21,856 nt of DNA from a virus. Below are positions 3,615 through 21,800 of the stretch, piece after piece. The stretch is from positions 1-21,856 of the IMG/VR virus record IMGVR_UViG_3300043409_000028. One strand, given 5' to 3'. Every line of letters begins with the position of its first letter. Position 1 is the stretch's first letter. Below the pieces are notes generated by a model, which was given only the letters and a program-made list of their open reading frames with translations, searched no databases and was not told the DNA's origin. A program made the translations under genes and the position numbers.

Positions 3615-6600
3615 GCGGCACCTGTTCTGGCAAATGTCTGCTGTTGAAGAATATTAGTTATTGTTGTTGGCGCATTAGTTAAAGAATACGTTCCTGTTGC
3701 TGTAGTGTAATCCGTACCTTGCCTTAACAATACGCCGTTTTGATACAGGTTGAAAGCGTCTACATCATAACTAAATGGGTAAAGAGTTTGCCCAATAACT
3801 GTATTAGCTATGATGTTTGCAGGATTACCATTAGGCACTGTTAAATTATTAGTAGACCATTGAATCATTGTTAATAATCCAGTCACAATATTTGGAAAAT
3901 TAGTAATTTCTGAATTTACAATATCATAATCTTGTTCATTAACCACAGTTCCATTGATAAATAACAATTCAAATCCGCTAGTCGGTGCTGGAGAATAAGT
4001 AGTTGCAGTTGTTAGATTTGCTGTAGTTCTAGAAAAAGATGGATAGTATCCAGAAACATGCCCCGGCGTTGTTTGAACGCCAGTTGTTGAATTTGAATAA
4101 CTTACTGTAGATGTTGTTGCGCCAGTAACTGTAAATGTTCCGTTATATCCAGCAGGAACAACATCAGCAACTGTTATAGATTGCCCAACCGTGAATGGTG
4201 CAGCAACTCTTTCTAAAAAGGTAATGGTTGCAACGCTTCCAGTGCCAGAAGTTGCTGTTGTTAAAATACTTGTAGAACTGCGGAACGAAATTACGCTAAT
4301 AGTATTATTTAATGTGGCTCCAACAGCAAGGGTTACGGTTGCTGATGCGTCTGTATATTCAGATTCATCAAGCAGACAACCGTTTTCAAATACAAAGCAC
4401 TGGTCGGTTATGTAGCCGGTGCCGCGAGTGACGTTAAACACGGTCTGACTAGCGGTAGCGGTAAATGATTGGATGGTGATGTAGAAATTATCAGGGGCTT
4501 CAAATCCAACCACACGACCATAAATATCTACAGTTATTTGCGCGGCACTATATGTTTTTTGGCTAGGGCCACCAAAGTTAAGAAATTGTTTTAAAGAAGC
4601 GACAACTTGACCATTAGGATTATTTTTAACCTCAATTTCTCCGGTTGTTGTTGATGTTGTTCCGGTAGAAAGTAGCTGGCCCGTAGCATGATCCAAATCT
4701 ATAAAGTTAGTTCCATCTGGTAATGCGGCCCATATTGTTGAATCAAATATAGTGGCTTGAGTCGGTACAAAAGCACCAGTGCCAGCCGCGTATGCTGCAA
4801 AGCCTGTTGCAAAACTAAACCTGCGAGTTGTGCGGTTTGAATAACATAAATAGATGGTAGTCCCAAAAGTCGGGTCAGCTAGATACCAAGTATAGTCAGC
4901 GGCGGTCTGGCTAGGCGTTTCGCTGGCTTGATTGTATAGCCCGTAGTAGTCGTGGTTTCGCGGGTCTAGATCGAACCCTGTTCCCGTAAGACTATCAGCG
5001 TAGGCCACTGACAGATACCGTTCTGTATATTGAAAAGTTCGTGGTCGCCAATTAAAGACTGCGCTGGCAGAAGAATAATGCGAAGCGCCAAGACTGTTTA
5101 CCATGCGGGAAAAGAAATACCAATTCCCCGAAGGAATGTCGCTTAACAATACCGATGGAAGCGGCGCATTTGGTGTATACGGATTTCCGTTTGATTGAAT
5201 CGCAGTGGTTCCTGCAAACAGTAATTGACCTGTAGTAGGGTTTGCAAATGCTGAATACCAGACTTCGGCGTATTGAATAATTCCTACATAACTTGCAGTC
5301 AATGCCAGCATGAAACTAGGAATTTCAGCGGTAGGATATTGAGCCGCTAAAACAGGCGCAGGAACCGATCCAAACACTACGGGAGAGGCTATGCCGGTGT
5401 TAGGTGCTGGCGTGAACTGCGTAACGCTCACATCGTCGTAGACCGCGGGGTTGAACTCTGAAACGGTTAATTTAGCCGTGACAGAACCATCTTCGGTAAA
5501 TTCATCTATGACTTTGTTAACTCTAAATTCTTTAGCTTCCCATCCGTAGTTTATGCTGGTAATCGTAACAATATCGCCAGCTTCTAATTGAATTCCAGAA
5601 AACTTTGTATTTACTTGAACTTGTAAATCTTCGCGTCCAGCTTTTAGCATCCGGTTAGCAAGATATTGCGCTCGGACGGAATTATTAACTAGCGGCAAAC
5701 TAATTGATTGTTTGTTTACCGGCTCATTAGGGAAAAGCAAAGTAGGATCAATTTGAGCAAGATCAAAAGTAGAAGAATTAAACGCGTCTTGGTTTGAATT
5801 ATCTGGAAACTTGCACTCAATGACGTTGTAGCTTGATGCAAGATCAAGTGGAGAAATACTAATAGCAGAAACCATGTTGCTATCATCAAGAGCCATCGCT
5901 ATCGTGTATGTGGGCTTTTGGGTAATAACTCCCCACGTTCCCATAATCTCGTTGTATTTAATTAAGCAATCGCAACAGGAAGCCATGTCCTGCATATTCG
6001 ACATAATGCTGCGCGTCGGGTCTAAAAGACCATCAAATCGAAAGCGGGTTTGCGTAGCGGACGGGCCTGTATAAGTAACGTAGGTAAAGGTTTCGTCGCA
6101 ATAGGCATCCAACACATCCAGACTGTCTGTATCAATCTGCGTAGCGGGGATGGCTCCACCGTATACGGTGTTTGTCAGATAGTCGTAGAAACACTCACCT
6201 GGCTTGTGGCGGCTATTGGTCAACTGAAAGCGCGTTTGCTCAAGGCCAGTAATGCTTTGGTCTTGGTTGTAAGTTAAAACAATAATGGCGAAAGCGCAGT
6301 TCGTCATTAACTTATTGCCATCCCACGTATAAACAAGACCGGCGCCACTCATTACAGCAATTGCGGAACTGCTTGAATTAACCTGACTGTTACTACCGTT
6401 GCTATATTTATAAATCTTAATGTTCCCGTTGATGATCTGGCTCTCGCCGGTGGATTCATCAAGCAAGGAATCTACGCTGTATTGGTTGGTCGCGTTAAAA
6501 ACTACTTTCTTGCCGCCGTAATAAATATCTCCAAAAGTAATAGTGTCAGAGCCATACGACGTAACTTCGGAAAGAGCCATTACGTAGTAAAGAGTTTGAT

Positions 6601-6937
6601 TGTCTTGCGTAATACTTAAATCAGTAATGATTCCACCGACCCATGCTTCTCCGTAAACAATTGGAAGTTTGTTGTCTGTAGCTGGCGCTATTTGAGTTCT
6701 GTTACCGGGGTTTGGCGAGCTTCCTGAAAGTTCATTTGCGGATTGTTGTGAGCTTGCAAATGCTTTTGATATTATGGCAGACGCAACCATATTTATTGCA
6801 TAAGCAGTTACTAAAGCCCATCCAGTTAATGCCGCTCCAGCAGCAACTTCAAATATCGCAGCAGCAATAATTGACCCAACTGCAAAAGCAGGTGTTGCAA
6901 TCATCATCCCAAAAAGAATGGCACAAAGTTTAAACAT
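3611..6937 (-). CDS. Tail tip / central hub protein, J-like
   Basis: 1108 aa, the size of lambda J-like host-specificity proteins. The N-terminus is very hydrophobic: MFKLCAILFGMMIATPAFA looks like a signal peptide with an AFA site, followed by Ala/Ile-rich segments to residue 60. The region from LPIVYGEAWVGGII (91) through SRHKPGECFYDYLTNTVYGG and FRFDGLLDPTRSIMSNM to VITQKPTYTI is typical of the phage tail hub fold (PF13550 type). After residue 818 come beta-rich beads: FNVTRGTGYITDQCFVFENG (bead 1), an inserted GYNGTFTVTGATTSTVSY domain, FELLFINGTVVNEQDYD (bead 2) and FNLYQNGVLLRQGTDYT (bead 3). These probably project as a receptor-binding stalk. It overlaps the upstream GNAT gene (TAATG) and the downstream fibre gene (ATGA). 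Confidence 0.88.
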   Translation of the reverse strand: MFKLCAILFGMMIATPAFAVGSIIAAAIFEVAAGAALTGWALVTAYAINMVASAIISKAFASSQQSANELSGSSPNPGNRTQIAPATDNKLPIVYGEAWVGGIITDLSITQDNQTLYYVMALSEVTSYGSDTITFGDIYYGGKKVVFNATNQYSVDSLLDESTGESQIINGNIKIYKYSNGSNSQVNSSSSAIAVMSGAGLVYTWDGNKLMTNCAFAIIVLTYNQDQSITGLEQTRFQLTNSRHKPGECFYDYLTNTVYGGAIPATQIDTDSLDVLDAYCDETFTYVTYTGPSATQTRFRFDGLLDPTRSIMSNMQDMASCCDCLIKYNEIMGTWGVITQKPTYTIAMALDDSNMVSAISISPLDLASSYNVIECKFPDNSNQDAFNSSTFDLAQIDPTLLFPNEPVNKQSISLPLVNNSVRAQYLANRMLKAGREDLQVQVNTKFSGIQLEAGDIVTITSINYGWEAKEFRVNKVIDEFTEDGSVTAKLTVSEFNPAVYDDVSVTQFTPAPNTGIASPVVFGSVPAPVLAAQYPTAEIPSFMLALTASYVGIIQYAEVWYSAFANPTTGQLLFAGTTAIQSNGNPYTPNAPLPSVLLSDIPSGNWYFFSRMVNSLGASHYSSASAVFNWRPRTFQYTERYLSVAYADSLTGTGFDLDPRNHDYYGLYNQASETPSQTAADYTWYLADPTFGTTIYLCYSNRTTRRFSFATGFAAYAAGTGAFVPTQATIFDSTIWAALPDGTNFIDLDHATGQLLSTGTTSTTTGEIEVKNNPNGQVVASLKQFLNFGGPSQKTYSAAQITVDIYGRVVGFEAPDNFYITIQSFTATASQTVFNVTRGTGYITDQCFVFENGCLLDESEYTDASATVTLAVGATLNNTISVISFRSSTSILTTATSGTGSVATITFLERVAAPFTVGQSITVADVVPAGYNGTFTVTGATTSTVSYSNSTTGVQTTPGHVSGYYPSFSRTTANLTTATTYSPAPTSGFELLFINGTVVNEQDYDIVNSEITNFPNIVTGLLTMIQWSTNNLTVPNGNPANIIANTVIGQTLYPFSYDVDAFNLYQNGVLLRQGTDYTTATGTYSLTNAPTTITNILQQQTFARTGAA

Positions 6938-7368
6938 TACTGTATCCAGTTCTCATCCATCTTGGAAAAGCCAAATCTTGCGTAGTCAATCTGAGTGTTG
7001 GGCAGCTTTGATAAAGTAAAAAAAGCTATCCTGCCTGATTCTTTTAACTGCTTTCCATAATCAATGTAAGCATTTAGCAATCTATGCCCTGCTGTAGTGT
7101 TTCTAAACTCTGGTTTTACATACCAAGCAAGTTCGTGTAATGCGTAAATCTTGTCGCTCCAAATCGTCGGAAAAACTATCCCAGCTATCAACCCGATATT
7201 GTCTTTTATAAATATAATTCCTTGACCAGATAAAATGTTATCTATTAAACGGTGCCAATATTCTGATTCTTCTATGTCTTGGTATTGCTTAATCTGGCTT
7301 TCCGTCTTGAACATCAACATCAATTCTTTTATCTGATCTTTATCGTATTTTGTGGCTTGTCTTATCAC
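6937..7368 (-). CDS. GNAT-family N-acetyltransferase
   Basis: 143 aa, the length of a single GNAT domain. The order of elements fits: an N-terminal IRQATKYDKDQIKELM strand-helix opening, IFIKDNIGLIAGIVFP strands, LHELAWYVKPEFRN (strand 4), the acetyl-CoA-binding turn RNTTAG at 89-94 leading into helix HRLLNAYIDYGKQL, and a final FTLSK...YARFGFSKMDENW segment of the usual 'Y.k.GF' type. The turn is a slightly degenerate form of the R/Q-x-x-G-x-G/A motif (Thr in place of the first Gly). It overlaps genes on both sides (ATGA, TAATG) inside the tail tip cluster, so it is made together with structural proteins. The substrate is unknown; it may modify a tail or host protein. Confidence 0.82.
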   Translation of the reverse strand: MIRQATKYDKDQIKELMLMFKTESQIKQYQDIEESEYWHRLIDNILSGQGIIFIKDNIGLIAGIVFPTIWSDKIYALHELAWYVKPEFRNTTAGHRLLNAYIDYGKQLKESGRIAFFTLSKLPNTQIDYARFGFSKMDENWIQ

Positions 7369-13779: not shown

Positions 13780-14120
13780 ACTGGGGTCGTAGGATCATTG
13801 CGATAACAAAGCAATGTAACCTTCATCCTGTCGTTAGACTCTCTTACATCAGATATACGCCAATCAAATCCGCGCCACGTAATGCTATACAAATTCTGGT
13901 TATCTACAATGCTTTTAATGTTCGGCGTGTAGTTAAATGTTAAATTTACCAAATCCTGATATACACGATAACGCTCAGATATTCTTAAACTATTTGATAC
14001 ATCAGCTACCAATGCTCTTGATGTAAACCACTCGGTTATAGTCGTAGTGTATTCACCAACCGAATTTACTCCGTTGGTTACATTGTTAATATCTACATTT
14101 TCAAATCTGGTGATAGCCAT
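13776..14120 (-). CDS. Head closure / head-tail joining protein
   Basis: Small protein (114 aa) expected to cap the connector and retain DNA after packaging. The C-terminal block YSITWRGFDWRISDVRESNDRMKVTLLCYRND matches the pattern of SPP1 gp16-type head-closure proteins (a strand with W.G..W.I..V.E...R...L.C). The protein is mostly beta, as expected. It starts within the stop of the connector (TAATG) and ends within the start of the next gene (ATGA), so the three neck genes are translationally coupled. The call rests on the motif, size and position. Confidence 0.7.
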   Translation of the reverse strand: MAITRFENVDINNVTNGVNSVGEYTTTITEWFTSRALVADVSNSLRISERYRVYQDLVNLTFNYTPNIKSIVDNQNLYSITWRGFDWRISDVRESNDRMKVTLLCYRNDPTTPV

Positions 14121-14761
14121 TACATAATAAGCGGTTTATACGGTCTCAACAAAGCATCAACACCAAAAGGGATATTTTTTAGCGTCACTTCAGTTGAATT
14201 AGAGCGGTTATTATATAAATGGGTAAGTAGCAGCAAGCCAGCTTGTTTAATTGCCGGGTATTGCATAATTGAATTAGCCGGAACCGTGTACAACACCTCA
14301 AGCGGGTTAGCATTGTATTGGTTTACTGTATTCGGCAGGCTTTGCAAAATTACCCTATTGCCTGTCGCGTCATACCAATAAGTATTGGTTGCCAAAGCGG
14401 TCAACACCGGAGGCAGCCCAGACCAAAGGCTCACGGAGTTAATTGTAGCCCCGCTACGGCCTTGAGAGACTTCAGGAAGGTCAAGGTATACCGCTGTGCT
14501 TGTCAGGCCGGGATTGCCGTAATAGATGCGATATTGGGTAGGGAATACAGCCATTCCCAAGTAATCCTCGATGGCAAACCGAGTCGCAACTTCCAAACTG
14601 GTTAAATAGGAATCTTGCGATTCATCTTCAAACAAGTTTAGTTGCTGCGTGATTTCGTCAAGCGTCAACCATTGAGTTACATAGTCTCTCGCCATCTGTT
14701 CAATTTTTACATAATTGAACGGGTTCCGATTTGACGAATAAGATTGGTTTTCGACCGGCAT
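14120..14761 (-). CDS. Head-tail connector (gp6-like adaptor)
   Basis: Predicted adaptor ring under the portal (213 aa). The N-terminal half has the helical layout of gp6-like / phiE125 gp8-like connectors: LTLDEITQQLNLFEDESQDSYL followed by the SLEVATRFAIEDYLGMAV helix. A beta-rich middle follows, containing the YYGNPGL and YLDLPEVS segments, and then a C-terminal helix (YPAIKQAGLLLLTHLYNNR), which is the common family ending. The gene follows the second capsid protein by six bases, without a clear Shine-Dalgarno, and overlaps the next gene as TAATG. Position between capsid and head closure is the standard HK97 order, which supports the call. Confidence 0.8.
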   Translation of the reverse strand: MPVENQSYSSNRNPFNYVKIEQMARDYVTQWLTLDEITQQLNLFEDESQDSYLTSLEVATRFAIEDYLGMAVFPTQYRIYYGNPGLTSTAVYLDLPEVSQGRSGATINSVSLWSGLPPVLTALATNTYWYDATGNRVILQSLPNTVNQYNANPLEVLYTVPANSIMQYPAIKQAGLLLLTHLYNNRSNSTEVTLKNIPFGVDALLRPYKPLIM

Positions 14762-14767
14762 GATTTT

Positions 14768-16012
14768 TTATGCGTGGTAACAACGGACACCAGCAAAAAC
14801 ATCTCGGATTGTCGAACAAACTCGCTTCTCTGCGAACAGAGTTACATACCCCGGTTGCGTTTGATCGAACATTTGAATATCCATTGTTTCGTTGTCAGCA
14901 ATCGTCACAAACTGATCCCACGCAGCAAAATAAATCGCAAATTTACCGGCAGCAAGGTTGTCCATATAGGGATTTATTCGTACTGGTTTTCCCATCAAAT
15001 AGACTGTAGAACTTGTCCCATCTTCGCCAGCTTGGTCAAGAAATATTCCGGCATTAGCCGCTAGTTTTCTAATTACTGAAAGCGTTGCAGGAGTCATCAT
15101 CCAAGCGCATGTCGGGTCTAACAAATATTGCGGCGGGAGCGCTTCATAAATATCGGCCAAATCATTAACAACAACTGCGCTTGCACTTGCCAAAGTAAAA
15201 GTTAAAACGGTATGAATGCCGTTTGTCATTGCAATCCCGCTTGAACCAAATGCCGCCGCCGAAGTTGAAGTCGTATAGCTGTTCAATCCACGCAAACCCA
15301 ACGTGCCGCCGTAATAGCCGGTAGTCGATGCTGCTTGGTCATTGTTAAACATCATCGACAGAGCTTCTTGTTGAGCAAATTCTAGGGCAATGTCTCGCAC
15401 GATAGATTCTTCGAGATTATTAACGTCCGATAGCATTGCAGTCCGAATTGGCACAGACGCTTGAATTGATCTCAAAGGCAATTGCCAAATTGAAGTTGAA
15501 TAGCCCGTAGAACCGGCAGCATTATTGCTATTGATTGGATAGTAGCCCCACGGATTGCCTACAGCGGTAATTGTAGTTGATGTTGCAGTCGTATCGCCAA
15601 GCACGTTGTAAGTACCAGTTCCGCCAGTGCCGGTGCCTAGCGAACTAATGTAAGTGCCCGCGGCGACGCCAGTGCCGGAAAGGATTTGACCAACGCGCAA
15701 CGTGCCGCTAGTCACAGCCGAAACCGTCAACACCGAGGCAGCAATTGCACCAGTAACAACCGCCCCATTTTGGATATTGGTTGCATTACCAGTTTTAACT
15801 ACAAAGGTCTGGTCTGAACCGATTGTATTTACTACTCGCGCACCTGCGCCGCGGATAGGATTAAACATACGCAATGACGCGAAAGCATCATCGTAAATAT
15901 TTCTGCCGCCTATGCCAGAACCCGATCCGGTCAGCAAAGCAGCTTCTTTCAAGTTTACAGATGCTTTTCCATTTTTAAGCGCGGCTTTAATGGATTCCAG
16001 AATTAGGCTCAT
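14768..16012 (-). CDS. Second capsid protein, HK97-fold paralogue with inserted domain
   Basis: 414 aa, paralogous to capsid protein 1. Blocks align in order: NPIRG (51-55), [36 protein letters not shown], and [23 protein letters not shown] near the end. It differs in two ways. It has no delta-length N-terminus (only 50 residues before NPIRG, against 131). It also carries an extra segment at about residues 80-152, rich in Gly/Thr/Ser/Val ([15 protein letters not shown], then [12 protein letters not shown]), at the place where protein 1 has its short probable E-loop. The preferred start is the ATG giving MSLILESI, with GGA seven bases upstream; a TTG four codons earlier is less likely. It could be a minor or vertex subunit, a decorated major subunit, or a conditional alternative. 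Confidence 0.88.
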
Positions 16013-16030
16013 ATTAAATTCCAATAAATG

Positions 16031-16066
16031 TTAAAAAGAGGGGGGATTTCTCCCCCCGTCCTTTTT
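16031..16066 (-). terminator. Hairpin terminator between the two capsid genes
   Basis: Read on the minus strand, GGGGGGA-GAAA-TCCCCCC is a perfect 7-bp stem capped by a GNRA-type GAAA tetraloop and followed at once by TCTTTTT. An outer AAAAAG/CTTTTT pairing lengthens the stem and puts an A-tract before it, so it could also act on the other strand. It starts just after the capsid 1 stop and ends about 20 bases before the capsid 2 ATG. By sequence it is the strongest intrinsic terminator in the window. Placed inside a co-directional operon, it probably lets only part of the transcripts continue. Confidence 0.85.
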
Positions 16067-17390
16067 AGTCGTTTGCGTCTGCGGTGGAACGATACGCAAC
16101 AATTGCATTAGCATCGTGGATGCTTGATGCCACACGTTTTTCCCCGTAAAACGTAATGAAACCCGGCGCTGTTTGATCGTAGCGTCGCATAACCATGTTC
16201 AGCCGGTCAATGATAACGTGGCCTCGCGCCCAATCACCGAAGAAAATCGGATACAGGTTCGGTTTGTCTACACCAGCATAATTCGGCGTATCCACGTATT
16301 TATTAACGACCACATCGAAGCCAAGCAACTGGCCTACGATGCCATCAGCCCGCGCCAGACCATCCACATAGATCGGACGTCCATTGTCATCGACCAACCC
16401 CCGGATTGCTTGCAGCTCAATCGGGTTAATCAAAAACGCTGCGGAGTCAGTCCAGTATTGATTAGGCAGACTGTAGATCAAGTTGATAACATCGGCATAC
16501 GTTACATTGTTAGCAGTAGCGGAAGTGCCGTTTGTCGTAAGCTGATCGTAAGTAGCAATCTGCGACAAGCCGTTAGTAGTCGCAACGCCGCTGCTGCCGA
16601 GTATAACCGGATGCACAGTGCCGCCAGTGTAAGTACTGGTGTAAGCGTATTGATTCAAACCACGCAGACCATTCGTTCCACCGTAAGTGTCAGGCGAATC
16701 GGTTTGATCGTCGTTAAGAATCATTGATTGCGCTTCGACTTGGCTAAACTCAGCCAGCATGTCAGACACAATGTTGGACTCAAGACCATCAATGTCGTCC
16801 AGCGTTGCAGTACGCACCGGGAATTGACAGTTAAGATCACGCAGGATCATTTGCCAAATCAGCGTGTCTTGAGTAGTCGGGCCTCCGTTGTTTTGGATTG
16901 CATAGCCCCACTGAGCGCCAGCATTGCCGATCTTTTGACGCAGTTGGTAAGCAGAACCATCAGTTGATACGGTGCGCGAAACGCCACGCAACGGATTCGT
17001 CTGACGCAGCGCCACAAAAACCGGATCATAACCAGTGCGACCGCCGACGTTGTAACCCGAACCGTATCCGGCAGGATTACCCAGTTGCGAACCCGTTTCT
17101 TGCAGGTACGCATCATACTGGTCGGTAGATTCAAACATCTTGATTTCTTTTTCCGAGCGAGCATTGGATTTATAGAAATCGCGGAGTTGTTCTTTGACCG
17201 AGCGGTTAATTTCTTGGCTCAGAGTCTTAGCCGGTGGTTTGATAATCGCCGGAGCTTGCACTTCAGCAATTTTGGCTTCCAGAGCATTCAGCTTTTCAGT
17301 GAATTCATTTTTAACAGCTTCAACAGATTCCGTAATCTTGGCTGCATTTCCCGCTTCGATTGCGTCCAGCTTTTCGAGGATTTTTTCCAT
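16065..17390 (-). CDS. Major capsid protein 1, HK97 fold with delta-like N-terminus
   Basis: Predicted main shell subunit (441 aa). Residues 1-100 form a charged helical, coiled-coil-like segment (MEKILEKLDAIEAGN onward) of the kind that serves as the built-in scaffold (delta domain) of HK97 gp5 and is removed by the protease. The folded part starts near NPLRG (132-136). It continues through the probable E-loop (YQLRQKIGNAGAQWGY, 148-163), PVRTATLDDIDGLE, the YGGTNGLRGLNQY block and a C-terminal axial-domain stretch with RYDQTAPGFITFYGEKRV. The ATG has a strong Shine-Dalgarno (AAGGA, six-base spacer), one of the best in the window. A hairpin terminator follows its stop. It is a clear paralogue of the next gene. 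Confidence 0.92.
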   Translation of the reverse strand: MEKILEKLDAIEAGNAAKITESVEAVKNEFTEKLNALEAKIAEVQAPAIIKPPAKTLSQEINRSVKEQLRDFYKSNARSEKEIKMFESTDQYDAYLQETGSQLGNPAGYGSGYNVGGRTGYDPVFVALRQTNPLRGVSRTVSTDGSAYQLRQKIGNAGAQWGYAIQNNGGPTTQDTLIWQMILRDLNCQFPVRTATLDDIDGLESNIVSDMLAEFSQVEAQSMILNDDQTDSPDTYGGTNGLRGLNQYAYTSTYTGGTVHPVILGSSGVATTNGLSQIATYDQLTTNGTSATANNVTYADVINLIYSLPNQYWTDSAAFLINPIELQAIRGLVDDNGRPIYVDGLARADGIVGQLLGFDVVVNKYVDTPNYAGVDKPNLYPIFFGDWARGHVIIDRLNMVMRRYDQTAPGFITFYGEKRVASSIHDANAIVAYRSTADAND

Positions 17391-17399
17391 GATATTTCC

Positions 17400-18179
17400 T
17401 TATATGCGTTTATTTAGAATTGACAGAAATTCTCGCTGCTCAAGAGCCGCTAAAATATCTGCTTCGATTACCACCGCGTCAGAGTCACTCTGAAGTGGGG
17501 CTTGCTCAATCGGTTTCAGTTGGGCATCACGCTCAAGCAGCAACTTTTTGAACAGACTAGACGCGGTGGCCGCATCTTTTTTTGAACACCCTGCATCACG
17601 CAGAGATTTTTCAATTGTTCGCGGATTCGGCTGGCCTTTATCATCAAAGTATTCCAGCTTTTGAATTTCCGCTTGTAGGTTGTTGGGATACATCACCACG
17701 GATACTTCCCGCAAACCACCTTTAGTGATTTGGAAATATCCTTTTTCGTAATCCGCATTTTGATCTAGCGGTACGCCATCTTCGTCGGTATAGATTGCTT
17801 CGTCAGCATAAGCACCGACAGAAACGCCACCGAACATCTTTGGCGATTCTTTTAGGATTGTATGCAGGTCGGAGCCGTTCATCGTATTCATAAAAATACG
17901 GCCTTTGGCGGTCATGCCTTCTTCGTCAAAGTTGAACTCGTCCCACTGACCTACGGGCATTCCTTCGTCGTTGTGATTGAGGAACATCGGCAACGGCTTA
18001 TCAGATTTAGAAAATTCATCTGCCCATTGCGCGAAACCTTCGGGTTTGTAATTGAATCTACGCCCGTCGGCACCTTCACGGATGCCCCACGTGGTCGCTC
18101 TGGCTTCTATAGCGCCAATTGTTGCCTCATCTGCCGCCAGCTTTACTTGAGCTTCGCAAATCAAAATGAGATTCTTCAT
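17400..18179 (-). CDS. Prohead maturation protease, HK97 family
   Basis: Serine protease (259 aa) packaged inside the prohead, which would trim the capsid delta region before expansion. It belongs with the HK97 gp4 / S78 (formerly U35) prohead proteases. The expected catalytic residues are visible: H69 in MFLNHNDEGMPVG, S120 in PKMFGGVSVGAY and E148 in GGLREVSVVMYPNN. These are in the spacing and local motifs (NH......G, G.S.G, L.EVS.V..P.N) known for the family. The start is fixed by two in-frame stops (TAG TGA) directly before the ATG. The C-terminal 70 residues are helical and charged and may act as a scaffold or targeting tail. It lies directly upstream of the delta-bearing capsid gene, its probable substrate. 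Confidence 0.92.
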   Translation of the reverse strand: MKNLILICEAQVKLAADEATIGAIEARATTWGIREGADGRRFNYKPEGFAQWADEFSKSDKPLPMFLNHNDEGMPVGQWDEFNFDEEGMTAKGRIFMNTMNGSDLHTILKESPKMFGGVSVGAYADEAIYTDEDGVPLDQNADYEKGYFQITKGGLREVSVVMYPNNLQAEIQKLEYFDDKGQPNPRTIEKSLRDAGCSKKDAATASSLFKKLLLERDAQLKPIEQAPLQSDSDAVVIEADILAALEQREFLSILNKRI

Positions 18180-18309
18180 TCACTACCCCGTTTTTAATAG
18201 ATTGGTTATTATCTTTTATTTTATGGGGTCTGCCAGCTTTCTTCGGCAGTTTAACACTTGTTTTCTTTATTTGGGAAGCAAGCGTTTCCATCATGTCTTG
18301 TATTGTCAT
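18127..18309 (-). CDS. Small basic protein between portal and protease, unknown
   Basis: A 60-aa ORF I do not recognise. Its ATG overlaps the portal stop as ATGA, and its 3' end overlaps the protease by 53 bases, so it fills what would otherwise be a 126-base gap between two head genes. The sequence is Lys/Arg/Ser-rich, with KKTSVKLPKKAGRPHKIKDN; the GRP core flanked by basic residues looks like an AT-hook-type DNA contact, but this is only a resemblance. No Shine-Dalgarno is evident, so expression would depend on coupling to portal translation. It could be a real accessory head protein or a chance ORF; position and overlap favour it being real. Confidence 0.5.
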   Translation of the reverse strand: MTIQDMMETLASQIKKTSVKLPKKAGRPHKIKDNNQSIKNGVVNEESHFDLRSSSKAGGR

Positions 18310-19703
18310 GTAGTGCCGATATTCATTTTCTTAACTTGATTGCCGCCGCCACCACCAGTATCTTGCGGCGAAGTGCCGGGAATTAGATCAGTTGCTTTAG
18401 TATCTTGTTTCAAATCGTCCGCGCCATCTTTCTTTTCAATGTTTAAGTATTCTCGCGCCTCATTCGGAGACATAATACCCGCGTTTACGCCGGACACAAC
18501 AAAATTCATCTGGTCAAGCGCTGCGCCCTTTAGGAAATCTTTCGTATCAAACCTAATACACAGGTTCGGGTAGCCCTTTAACAAATGCTGTTTTAGCTTT
18601 TGTTCGATGTTGATTACCATCGGATACATCGTGGTTTTATAGAACTCGTCGAGCATGGTTTGCGAATTGTTAAACTTTCCCTCGCCAAACGAAAGCATTT
18701 GCGGAGGCACACCAAACAAACCGCAAATCCGCTTCATGGTTTGGTCTTTAAGTTTGGCACAATCAGCGTCTTGCAACGTCAGCATGTCGATCGGCATGTA
18801 TTTCATGCCCTGATCCAAAAGCATACCCTGACCGGCTTTGCTTTGGTCAACGTCACGACTGCCGATCATCGCATTCCAGGCTTCCTTTAACCGCGCCGCG
18901 ACCTCTTTATATTTCGCGTCAGGAATAACCATATCGGTTGTAAATATACCCGACGGTTTGGCACCATTTTGCATTATAAAATTAGCGTACAAGTCTATGT
19001 CCTGATCGAGCGCGACTAATTCTGTAGCCAGAATGCCTTTGTTAAATCCGCTGGAACCTTGCCACGCGGCTTCTTTAACGTGCATCACTTGGTGCGAAGC
19101 TAACGGCTGGTCTTTAGAAAATCCGTAGCTCGGTGTAGAAAGTCGGTAAGACGGGTAACGGGTCGGAGTCAGAATAACCGTTATCAAAGTTGAGTCAAGG
19201 TTATACATTTCCAACGGAGTCGTGCTGGCGTCTTTTTGGTCTTTTCTCCACCACAGCGTAAACGACTCGCCAGCAATGTCTTGCCACATGCACCACTGAT
19301 ACCAAAACTCGTACATGCTCTGGAAATTGTTAGGCTCGCTTAATAGATTGGCGACCTGCTTGGCTTTGGCTTTGTCTCTGTTACTTACGTCGGGTGATTT
19401 AAGCGCATCGACAAATGTACCGTCATCCGTTTTGTACATTACGCTTACGGAAAGTTGAGCTAATGCTCTAGCTTTAACGCCCACGCAACCCATTATTGTC
19501 GAATTGCGGGTAAGAAGTGATATATCTACAGTCCGTCCCGCGACAGTAGAACTGCCTGTGGTGACATACAGCAGTTGTGAGGATACCGGACCTTTCTGCG
19601 ACGTAGCGAACAGCACTTGGTTGCCCAATTGCATCTGGCCTAGAACGGCATTTGCTTCGTTCTGAGTCGTTTTTTTCCGCTTGAATATGTCCAGAATAGC
19701 CAT
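18306..19703 (-). CDS. Portal protein, HK97 family
   Basis: Dodecameric ring at the unique capsid vertex; DNA passes through it and the connector proteins dock below. The preferred start is the ATG giving MAILDIFKRKK (465 aa), because this is a typical opening for HK97-family portals and a GAGAG purine stretch lies just upstream. The frame is open 13 codons further to a TTG at 19742, which would overlap terL. Family features are the central NLDSTLITVIL region, the crown and clip region with ICGLFGVPPQMLSFGEG, and NNSQTMLDEFYKTT, which resembles the conserved N..E....F...T region. The C-terminus is a Gly-rich tail (TGGGGGNQVKKMN), probably disordered. Its stop overlaps the next small ORF as ATGA. 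Confidence 0.93.
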   Translation of the reverse strand: MAILDIFKRKKTTQNEANAVLGQMQLGNQVLFATSQKGPVSSQLLYVTTGSSTVAGRTVDISLLTRNSTIMGCVGVKARALAQLSVSVMYKTDDGTFVDALKSPDVSNRDKAKAKQVANLLSEPNNFQSMYEFWYQWCMWQDIAGESFTLWWRKDQKDASTTPLEMYNLDSTLITVILTPTRYPSYRLSTPSYGFSKDQPLASHQVMHVKEAAWQGSSGFNKGILATELVALDQDIDLYANFIMQNGAKPSGIFTTDMVIPDAKYKEVAARLKEAWNAMIGSRDVDQSKAGQGMLLDQGMKYMPIDMLTLQDADCAKLKDQTMKRICGLFGVPPQMLSFGEGKFNNSQTMLDEFYKTTMYPMVINIEQKLKQHLLKGYPNLCIRFDTKDFLKGAALDQMNFVVSGVNAGIMSPNEAREYLNIEKKDGADDLKQDTKATDLIPGTSPQDTGGGGGNQVKKMNIGTT

Positions 19704-19722
19704 ATTTTCTCTCGTTTTTTTA

Positions 19723-21387
19723 CTAAAAACTTCTGAAACCAAAGCTACTATTTAACATAGGGTTATCTAAAGCGCAATGGAAAGCCATAATCATAGCAAT
19801 AATACCGTCAACTTTTGCGGAAGTGTCAGATGAGTTTTTCCTAACTTTCTTGTTCCCATTAACGTCCTCATAAACTTCACAGTTACCAAGCTGCCACAAA
19901 ACAAACGGGTCATGGTCATGTGAAATTGATTTGCTTAATATTAACTTTTCTACATGCTTAGACGGATTGTTAAGAACTGACATACCCTGCCCAATCTTTT
20001 TTACCGGCAGGCTATTTTCATACAATTTGCTTACCAAGGCAGCCGCGTTCCATGCGTCGAACCCGATTTCCTTAGCGTTATACTTTTCTGCTTGCTGCCT
20101 AATAAATATCTCAATTTCCGCGTAATCAGCAACATTACCTTCGGTCAATTTCAAAGTCCCGCGCTGCGCCGCTTGAAGGAAAACGGGCCGGTAATGGCTT
20201 GGGATAAAACTTAAACTTTCTTCCGGCAAAAAGAACATGAATTCTGCGTGATACTTTTCCTCACCGTACCGATGCAATGTGCAAACAGCGTTTAAATCCC
20301 TGGTTGCCGCTAGGTCAAAAGCAATAAATGTAGATTCCAAAACAGCTTGCTCTGGTTGCCCTTTCGGTGCGTCCTCCCAATGCGTAGTATTGATCCATGC
20401 AGAATTGGCAGAAACATAAACATTAAACGTCTTGCAAAGCAGTTCATTAACAGATGATGGCTTTGATTGAGCCTCTTTAACTCTTTGCTCAATAGATTCA
20501 GTGTTAATAGATATTCCATGCATCGGATTAACTTTTGCCCAATTCTTCGGGTCTTTCCAATCGTCGCCTTCATCCAGCCCATAAAGCAAACCAAACCAAC
20601 GCGGGTTATCTTCGCATTGCCCCGTAAGCATTGCTTTTAGATATTGTAGATTCTCAAAGAATAGGGTTTCTTTAGTAAAAGACGCGGTGGTAATGTAAAT
20701 CCGCAATGGATTTTGCCTTGCCACCATCCCCGAATGGATAACTTCAATAGAGTTCCTTTCGGTAATCTGCGCAGCTTCATCAATAATTGAAACAGACGGA
20801 TTCTTCCCGTCGCCTGTCTTTTTACTGTCTCGGCTAAGTGCGGAAAACTTGGATTGGCTGTCGTCCGCCTTTTTTATTTCATTACGATAGACCGTAAACT
20901 TTGATGCAATTTGCGCCGGTAGCGTTTCAATAATGCCTTTAGCAGTATCAAATACAATGCTTGCTTGAGTCCTATCAACTGCTGTGCAATATACTTCGGA
21001 GCCAGCCTCACCAAACAGTAATTCGTAGAGCGAAATAATAGAGATAAGAGTCGATTTACTAGACTTACGAGGAATAAACAAAATAACATCTTGAACCATC
21101 CTTATATTTTGATTTTTCTTGTCCCGGAAACCATAAATTGCACAAAGCAAAAGAATCTGGAACGGTATCAGTTCCATAGGTTTCCCGGCAATTGGGCCTT
21201 TAACGTGCCTAACGTGAGAAACAAACCTTAATACATGCTCAACATACTCAGACTTAAATTCCCACCGCCATTCTTTATTTTCTAAGTGATTAAGAAACCG
21301 CTGGCAAGCAAGCTGGACATCTTTGCATACGTCAACATTTCCAAGCGACACCTCCCTAGCATACTGAACCCCATCTTCCCATTTCAT
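19723..21387 (-). CDS. terL: Terminase large subunit (ATPase and nuclease)
   Basis: Packaging motor and headful or cos nuclease (554 aa, normal for HK97-type Terminase_1). The N-terminal ATPase has a Walker A-like loop PRKSSKST at residues 106-113, of the PRK..KST form seen in this family, and Walker B VSIIDEAAQ with D203 and E204. The C-terminal RNase H-like nuclease shows its three expected acidic positions: D358 in FIAFDLAATRD, D444 in IGFDAWN and D527 in KVDGIIAMIMA. All key residues are present, so the enzyme looks intact. It starts four bases inside terS (ATGA) and ends 19 bases before the preferred portal ATG. It acts in the cytoplasm, docked on the portal of the prohead. Confidence 0.95.
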   Translation of the reverse strand: MKWEDGVQYAREVSLGNVDVCKDVQLACQRFLNHLENKEWRWEFKSEYVEHVLRFVSHVRHVKGPIAGKPMELIPFQILLLCAIYGFRDKKNQNIRMVQDVILFIPRKSSKSTLISIISLYELLFGEAGSEVYCTAVDRTQASIVFDTAKGIIETLPAQIASKFTVYRNEIKKADDSQSKFSALSRDSKKTGDGKNPSVSIIDEAAQITERNSIEVIHSGMVARQNPLRIYITTASFTKETLFFENLQYLKAMLTGQCEDNPRWFGLLYGLDEGDDWKDPKNWAKVNPMHGISINTESIEQRVKEAQSKPSSVNELLCKTFNVYVSANSAWINTTHWEDAPKGQPEQAVLESTFIAFDLAATRDLNAVCTLHRYGEEKYHAEFMFFLPEESLSFIPSHYRPVFLQAAQRGTLKLTEGNVADYAEIEIFIRQQAEKYNAKEIGFDAWNAAALVSKLYENSLPVKKIGQGMSVLNNPSKHVEKLILSKSISHDHDPFVLWQLGNCEVYEDVNGNKKVRKNSSDTSAKVDGIIAMIMAFHCALDNPMLNSSFGFRSF

Positions 21388-21800
21388 ACGCTTTTTGGCC
21401 CTTCAAGAAGTTCGTCAATTTCATTTGGAAAAGCGGATTTTTTCGGCCTTCCGCTAGGCACAAGACCCAACATCGTAAGCAGTTGCATTATCCTGGACAA
21501 CGAGCTATCCCTTACTTTTTGATTTGGGTTAGCCATCCTCGCTCCGTTGTTTGCATGCTCAATCAATTCCTCGGCAAGCAAAGCTTTTGCAGCTTTGACA
21601 TAAGTATCCATTTGGTCGGCAAGCATCGTAATTAAATGCTCGTCAAACTTAACGTCTTGCCCGTAAGCGTTAATCATTGCTTGCGCGACCTCTCCCGCAA
21701 AAACTTCTTTATCCCATGACTCAGGGTCAGTCAGCCACTTTGCAAGATTGGCCTCGCGCAGTCTTATTTGCACCACATTTTCGTTCAATTTGTGTTTCAT
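21384..21800 (-). CDS. terS: Terminase small subunit, P27-like
   Basis: Predicted DNA-recognition subunit of the packaging motor (138 aa). It would bind viral DNA and hand it to the large subunit at the portal. The C-terminal third has the layout of the P27 (Terminase_4) family: an NPNQKVRDSSLSRIMQLL helix followed by LGLVPSGRPKK, which matches the family's pattern of NP..K.R......L...LGL.P..R. The N-terminal half is predicted helical and charged. The ATG is preceded by a good Shine-Dalgarno sequence (AGGTGAGGC). Its stop overlaps the next ATG as ATGA, so it is translationally coupled to the large terminase, the usual terS-terL arrangement. The family call rests on motif memory and gene position; the direct neighbour makes it fairly secure. 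Confidence 0.85.
   Translation of the reverse strand: MKHKLNENVVQIRLREANLAKWLTDPESWDKEVFAGEVAQAMINAYGQDVKFDEHLITMLADQMDTYVKAAKALLAEELIEHANNGARMANPNQKVRDSSLSRIMQLLTMLGLVPSGRPKKSAFPNEIDELLEGPKSV

Follow-up and report, generated by a model that had tools for sequence, protein, structure and literature searches.

HK97 has one capsid gene. A 2025 account singles out T4 as the sole known virus in which two distinct HK97-fold proteins take separate structural roles (PMC12407261). In this phage, gp24 forms 11 pentamers and probably arose by duplication of gp23; the latter sheds a 65-residue N-terminal region, and gp24 sheds just 10 residues (PMC9958956). Two co-encoded HK97-fold shell proteins are also found in the two-component Family 2B encapsulins (PMC12407261), which are cellular compartments with enzyme cargo and randomly mixed subunits, and have no scaffold, protease, or portal. 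Our survey of the mostly open-access literature on phages with two HK97-fold capsid genes yielded, besides T4, only T7 10A/10B and a mention of phage Lu221. T7 10A/10B was rejected as a precedent because it is a frameshift product rather than a pair of paralogues, and Lu221 is mentioned as having two putative major capsid proteins (PMC10782986).

The window analysed here, the whole 21,856-base stretch of a virus record, contains, on its minus strand, the head and tail genes of a phage, ordered as small and large terminase, portal, S78 prohead protease, capsid1, capsid2, connectors, tail terminator, and tail genes. The small terminase (TerS; 21384..21800, minus strand; PF05119) and the terminase large subunit (TerL; 19723..21387, minus; PF20441 and PF03354) are followed by the portal protein (18306..19742, minus; PF04860, E 5.7e-60), the prohead serine protease (S78; 17400..18179, minus; PF04586, E 3.6e-8), capsid1 (16065..17390, minus), capsid2 (14768..16012, minus), and an Ad1-like head-tail connector immediately 3′ of capsid2 (14120..14761, minus; PF05135, PHROG 40). 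By profile matches, the portal and the protease both lie upstream of the capsid pair, as expected for the HK97 type, and the S78 protease is expected to remove the scaffold domain. Flanked as it is by terminase, portal, protease, connector, and tail genes, the pair is not an encapsulin locus. Elsewhere in the window, a GNAT acetyltransferase-like gene (6937-7368; PF00583, E 3.1e-6) is located within the tail cluster, and the ORF at 2-2263 is repetitive and tail-fibre-like, has no PHROG match, and shows a G+C content near 53%, against ~43% in the rest of the window. Between the window and locus L004, the portal, protease, and capsid1 are 97–98% identical, whereas TerL and TerS (19723-21800) are 63 and 37% identical, respectively; from these sequences, a recombination point between the terminase and the portal is likely.

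The two capsid ORFs are neighbours on the minus strand and are both intact from start to stop; capsid2 likely starts at ATG 16012 rather than TTG 16024. Capsid1 (441 aa) is an HK97-type major capsid protein (PF05065, E 2.3e-31; TIGR01554 over its whole length, E 6.5e-32), and capsid2 (414 aa) is an HK97-type paralogue (PF05065, E 5.7e-19). The two proteins score 69 and 109.7 bits against PF05065 (curated cut-off 24.2) and 68.7 and 111.1 bits against TIGR01554 (curated cut-off 27.5), and both match PHROG 10. Their identity is 39% by BLASTP (279 aa, E 9e-47, with an extra N-arm block 49% identical) and also 39% by profile–profile alignment (317 columns, E 2.6e-84). The AF2 models of the two, which are of low confidence (mean pLDDT 59.5 and 47.1), both gave a Foldseek probability of 1.00 to the RcGTA and HK97 capsids, with best E values of 1.3e-11 and 7.8e-11, the former being that of capsid2 against the RcGTA capsid fold. 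The RcGTA capsid (Rhodobacter capsulatus, Rcc01687, 6TB9) is the nearest solved structure to both, but it is a single capsid protein and a distant one, the best stretch by profile being about 130 aa. In the family alignment, the shell-domain core of capsid2 is conserved end to end and retains both the invariant lysine of the E-loop and the C-terminal EKR motif, and many invariant residues are common to both proteins. These results bear out the original prediction of two tandem paralogous HK97-fold capsid genes, and the ordered motif blocks that it quoted as shared are real; it made no mention of the E-loop insert of capsid2 or of the hairpin separating the two genes, both described below.

IMG/VR was searched by single sequence and by profile; the query patterns were taken from one copy per scan, so that co-occurrence of capsid1 and capsid2 was not built into the result. 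The tandem arrangement was found in at least 269 loci with at least 199 distinct junction sequences. Among the matches listed, no contig with room for capsid2 is without it, and the family contigs with capsid1 only all end within 266 nt past the capsid1 stop; a truncated capsid2 start is visible at the contig end in L096 and L227. The same gene order, with both capsids (4600-5988 and 6066-7124), occurs in the isolate Methylophilaceae phage P19250A (complete genome, KX815270), where the second gene is annotated merely as a hypothetical protein. A scan of a genome collection returned five MAG contigs with the pair, four in proteobacterial MAGs and one (L300) binned in an archaeal Candidatus Nitrosotalea MAG, the last probably through mis-binning. 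Seven more distant phages, whose capsids are about 22–26% identical, have a single capsid gene each. The pair is a trait of a widespread freshwater phage group and is not transient.

A phylogeny of both proteins had been proposed as a check, and a maximum-likelihood tree was built from 44 capsid pairs and the 7 single-capsid outgroups. One branch (support 91) separated all capsid1 sequences from the rest, another (99) did so for all capsid2 sequences, and a third (100) set the outgroups apart. On this tree, the pair is the product of a single old duplication that preceded the diversification of the sampled family, the rooting being less certain than the split because the outgroup branches are long. 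Median dN/dS values among close pairs were 0.083 and 0.086 for the two copies, indicating strong purifying selection on both, and capsid2 changes faster (mean pairwise protein identity 0.61 vs 0.72 in capsid1). The two genes are hence diverged duplicates and not a broken gene, as had been proposed, and both persist in relatives. Explanation by a transient or decaying duplication, or by an assembly artefact, found no supporting point and is vanishingly improbable given the at least 199 distinct junctions, the absence of any observed loss, the dN/dS of ~0.08, and the matching gene order of a complete isolate genome; the first three of these exclude the transient or decaying copy, and the P19250A genome rules out the artefact. 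A horizontal origin of capsid2 in some distant phage was also considered and is unsupported, since capsid2 and capsid1 are sisters when set against the seven outgroups, though the branches of these outgroups are long. Regarding four loci (L095, L097, L099, and L112), capsid1 is near that of the window while capsid2 lies on another branch, and the neighbouring head genes are mostly 55–84% identical to those of the window. This conflict suggests that capsid2 alone may have been exchanged between lineages.

The two proteins differ most plainly at their N-termini, and the scaffold region that had been assigned to the first gene only is indeed confined to it: the median number of residues ahead of the conserved GGR motif in the family drops from 116 (capsid1) to 36 (capsid2). 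The N-terminus of capsid1 is a coiled-coil (delta-like) scaffold domain of ~80 residues (residues 1 to ~75), which is taken in by the TIGR01554 match beginning at residue 6 and in which AF2 places, with low confidence, a helix at 2-43. Capsid2 is without the coiled coil and has ~80 fewer N-terminal residues. Its N-terminal ~25 aa, predicted by AF2 with locally moderate confidence as a helix (3-14) and a strand (16-20), are conserved in the family alignment as LILEAxKxALxEGxATVNLKEASALTGSG. In HK97 Prohead I, scaffold residues 76–103 form a helix (76–88), a turn, and a strand (92–97) on the inner face of the shell; the 103/104 cleavage site comes after this docked stretch, and the remaining scaffold forms towers beneath, two-lobed under each hexon (PMC10275583). 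The predicted stub of capsid2 matches this helix-turn-strand, from which we infer that the docking stem may have been kept and the tower lost. The delta domain of HK97 is reportedly essential for assembly; if this is valid here, capsid2 should need capsid1 for entry into the shell.

The expression signals around the two genes also differ. An intrinsic-terminator-like hairpin, GGGGGGAGAAATCCCCCC followed by TCTTTTT, lies between the capsid1 stop and the capsid2 start (16031..16057, hairpin 16040-16057, minus strand; -14.5 kcal/mol). By explicit stem search of the matches listed, a hairpin was present 3′ of capsid1 in 157 of 158 distinct junctions, with a median of -16.3 kcal/mol, 129 different stem-loops, and a T-run in 87%. 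At the same -7 threshold, the frequency was 31% after capsid2, and it was 9% in shuffled sequences. The sole junction without a hairpin was that of L031, whose close relative L030 has the hairpin sequence. No comparable hairpin was found at the other gene junctions examined in P19250A and the window. A hairpin occurs at the same position after the single capsid gene in 6 of the 7 outgroup phages. From its placement in these sequences, the hairpin appears to be a mark of the major capsid gene, and capsid2 is located on its far side; being common in the outgroups too, it may be mainly an mRNA 3′ end. In this feature, as in the portal-protease-capsid order and the fused scaffold, capsid1 is like HK97 gp5 and the single-capsid siphophages of PF05065, from which the present locus differs in that each of the seven outgroup phages has one capsid gene.

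The capsid1 ribosome-binding site reads TAAGGA (17397..17402, minus strand), and that of capsid2, in the TTGGAA region (16019..16026, minus), is weaker; across the family, the Shine-Dalgarno match averages 5.2 nt for capsid1 against 3.35 nt for capsid2. Given the hairpin ahead of capsid2 and its weaker ribosome site, capsid1 is probably the abundant protein, and capsid2 is predicted to be made in a smaller amount. Lack of a scaffold domain and a probably low expression would also suit an assembly factor, that is, a competitor, chaperone, or size regulator acting outside the mature shell. However, the shell core of capsid2 is conserved over its whole length, E-loop lysine and EKR motif included, and we consider such a role quite improbable.

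Our preferred reading is that capsid1 builds the hexons and that capsid2 would be a low-copy vertex (penton) subunit of the virion, gp24-like in function and of separate origin, an assignment that we judge about evenly balanced between right and wrong. Capsid1, a regular major capsid protein of the HK97 type that brings its own scaffold domain, would form the hexamers. Capsid2 would be a specialised duplicate in which the coiled-coil tower is gone and the shell-docking stem retained; it would probably be unable to drive assembly alone, would enter shells nucleated by capsid1, and would most likely supply the pentamers for the 11 vertices other than the portal, in the way that gp24 complements gp23 in T4. 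The terminator-like hairpin and the weaker ribosome site would hold its ratio low. The heads are probably of ordinary T=7 size, judging from the genome size, and a T=7 head would need 55 copies of capsid2 and 360 of capsid1. Capsid2 is favoured as the penton protein because its scaffold is mostly lost, its amount is probably lower, it is never lost, and it resembles gp24. Two points count against this role. HK97 and other small phages, with genomes of some 39 kb, do without a vertex protein. Furthermore, tower loss does not by itself imply pentons, since HK97 pentons have scaffold density beneath them (PMC10275583). Among the three functional readings originally put forward, the vertex subunit is thus favoured by the tower loss, the hairpin, the weaker ribosome site, and the gp24 parallel, with its location inferred, and switching from one shell type to another is less favoured, since the genes stand in tandem with one orientation and, among the matches listed, no genome has one alone.

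The main rival is a mixed lattice, in which both proteins would occupy hexamers and pentamers, at random or at fixed quasi-equivalent positions, and capsid2 would adjust how stable the shell is or what surface it presents. The 39% identity and the many shared invariant residues are compatible with co-assembly in the same capsomer, irregular mixing has a precedent in a two-component HK97-fold shell (PMC12407261), and the apparent exchange of capsid2 between lineages suits a tolerant partner. Nevertheless, the hairpin and the weaker Shine-Dalgarno match predict few capsid2 copies, and tower-less subunits scattered in hexamers would be expected to disturb HK97-like two-lobed towers; overall, we regard this lattice as unlikely. 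The 16 conserved positions that distinguish capsid1 from capsid2 are scattered over the protein and single out no capsomer interface, and the pentamer and hexamer interfaces could not be located from the AF2 capsid models (mean pLDDT 59.5 and 47.1).

The greater variability of capsid2, its extra domains included, also counts in favour of the vertex reading. The capsid2 of the window carries an insert at the tip of the E-loop (15557..15775, minus strand), ~67 aa longer than in relatives, as delimited by alignment and by matches to PHROG 21413 and 38233. By these PHROG matches it resembles phage tail-fibre modules; a BLAST comparison with the tail proteins of the window gave nothing significant. 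The insert is present, at identical length throughout, in 24 of 161 capsid2 sequences, is restricted to relatives of the window's capsid2 (that of P19250A differs in being without it), and occurs in none of the 170 capsid1 sequences, whose E-loop length is constant (170/170). Seven capsid2 sequences have instead an N-terminal extension of the PHROG 2859 type, a family of unknown function; it is ~100 aa long, includes GLEWRKEFxRGGTEVGVARAR, and replaces the short helix (carriers include L099:5953-7284, L122:9416-10690, L133, L282, L283, and the 3′ end of L096). Since it is present in at least two capsid2 branches, the extension has, as far as the sequences indicate, been acquired or transferred on more than one occasion. 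Inserts and N-terminal extensions were seen solely in capsid2, never in capsid1.

This restriction of accessory domains to capsid2 would fit another special site, either the hexons that ring the portal vertex or a surface platform, present in few copies, for accessory parts such as the E-loop insert and PHROG 2859 extension; in addition, capsid2 fills the slot of a small gene found between the capsid and the head-tail adaptor in some related single-capsid phages. We know of no HK97-fold protein that serves as decoration only. Scaffold domains from 30 subunits touch the portal in HK97 (PMC10275583), which makes scaffold-less subunits poor candidates for the portal vertex. Either placement appears improbable.

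The vertex reading rests on the likeness to T4 gp23/gp24, where, as here, two HK97-fold paralogues are kept, probably from one duplication, and the minor copy has a much shorter N-terminal propeptide. T4 differs in that gp23 and gp24 are ~20% identical, the scaffold core is separate, and the head is large and prolate, whereas the present pair is 39% identical and of the PF05065 type, with the scaffold fused to capsid1 and a genome of about 39 kb in P19250A. Furthermore, the vertex role is demonstrated for gp24 and is proposed for capsid2. T4 gp23/gp24 chains were absent from the PDB sequence-search matches of both capsids. As this was so and each copy has the other as its closest relative, the pair is, by sequence, one that would work like gp23/gp24 and is not a member of that system by descent. 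We therefore propose, somewhat tentatively and with the outcome leaning slightly against us, that this family evolved an HK97-fold penton protein independently of T4, by capsid duplication and stripping of the fused scaffold from one copy, probably in T=7 heads, the vertex protein then becoming a platform for domain swaps.

If this is true, the family would represent a second, independent shell of two HK97-fold proteins, in small phages with a fused scaffold. The existence of the isolate P19250A makes the vertex hypothesis directly testable. Hundreds of environmental genomes have such a second shell-type gene, which in the isolate annotation is merely hypothetical. The pair, if the proposal holds, would open a test of why viruses give pentons their own protein and of whether a tower is needed beneath pentons.
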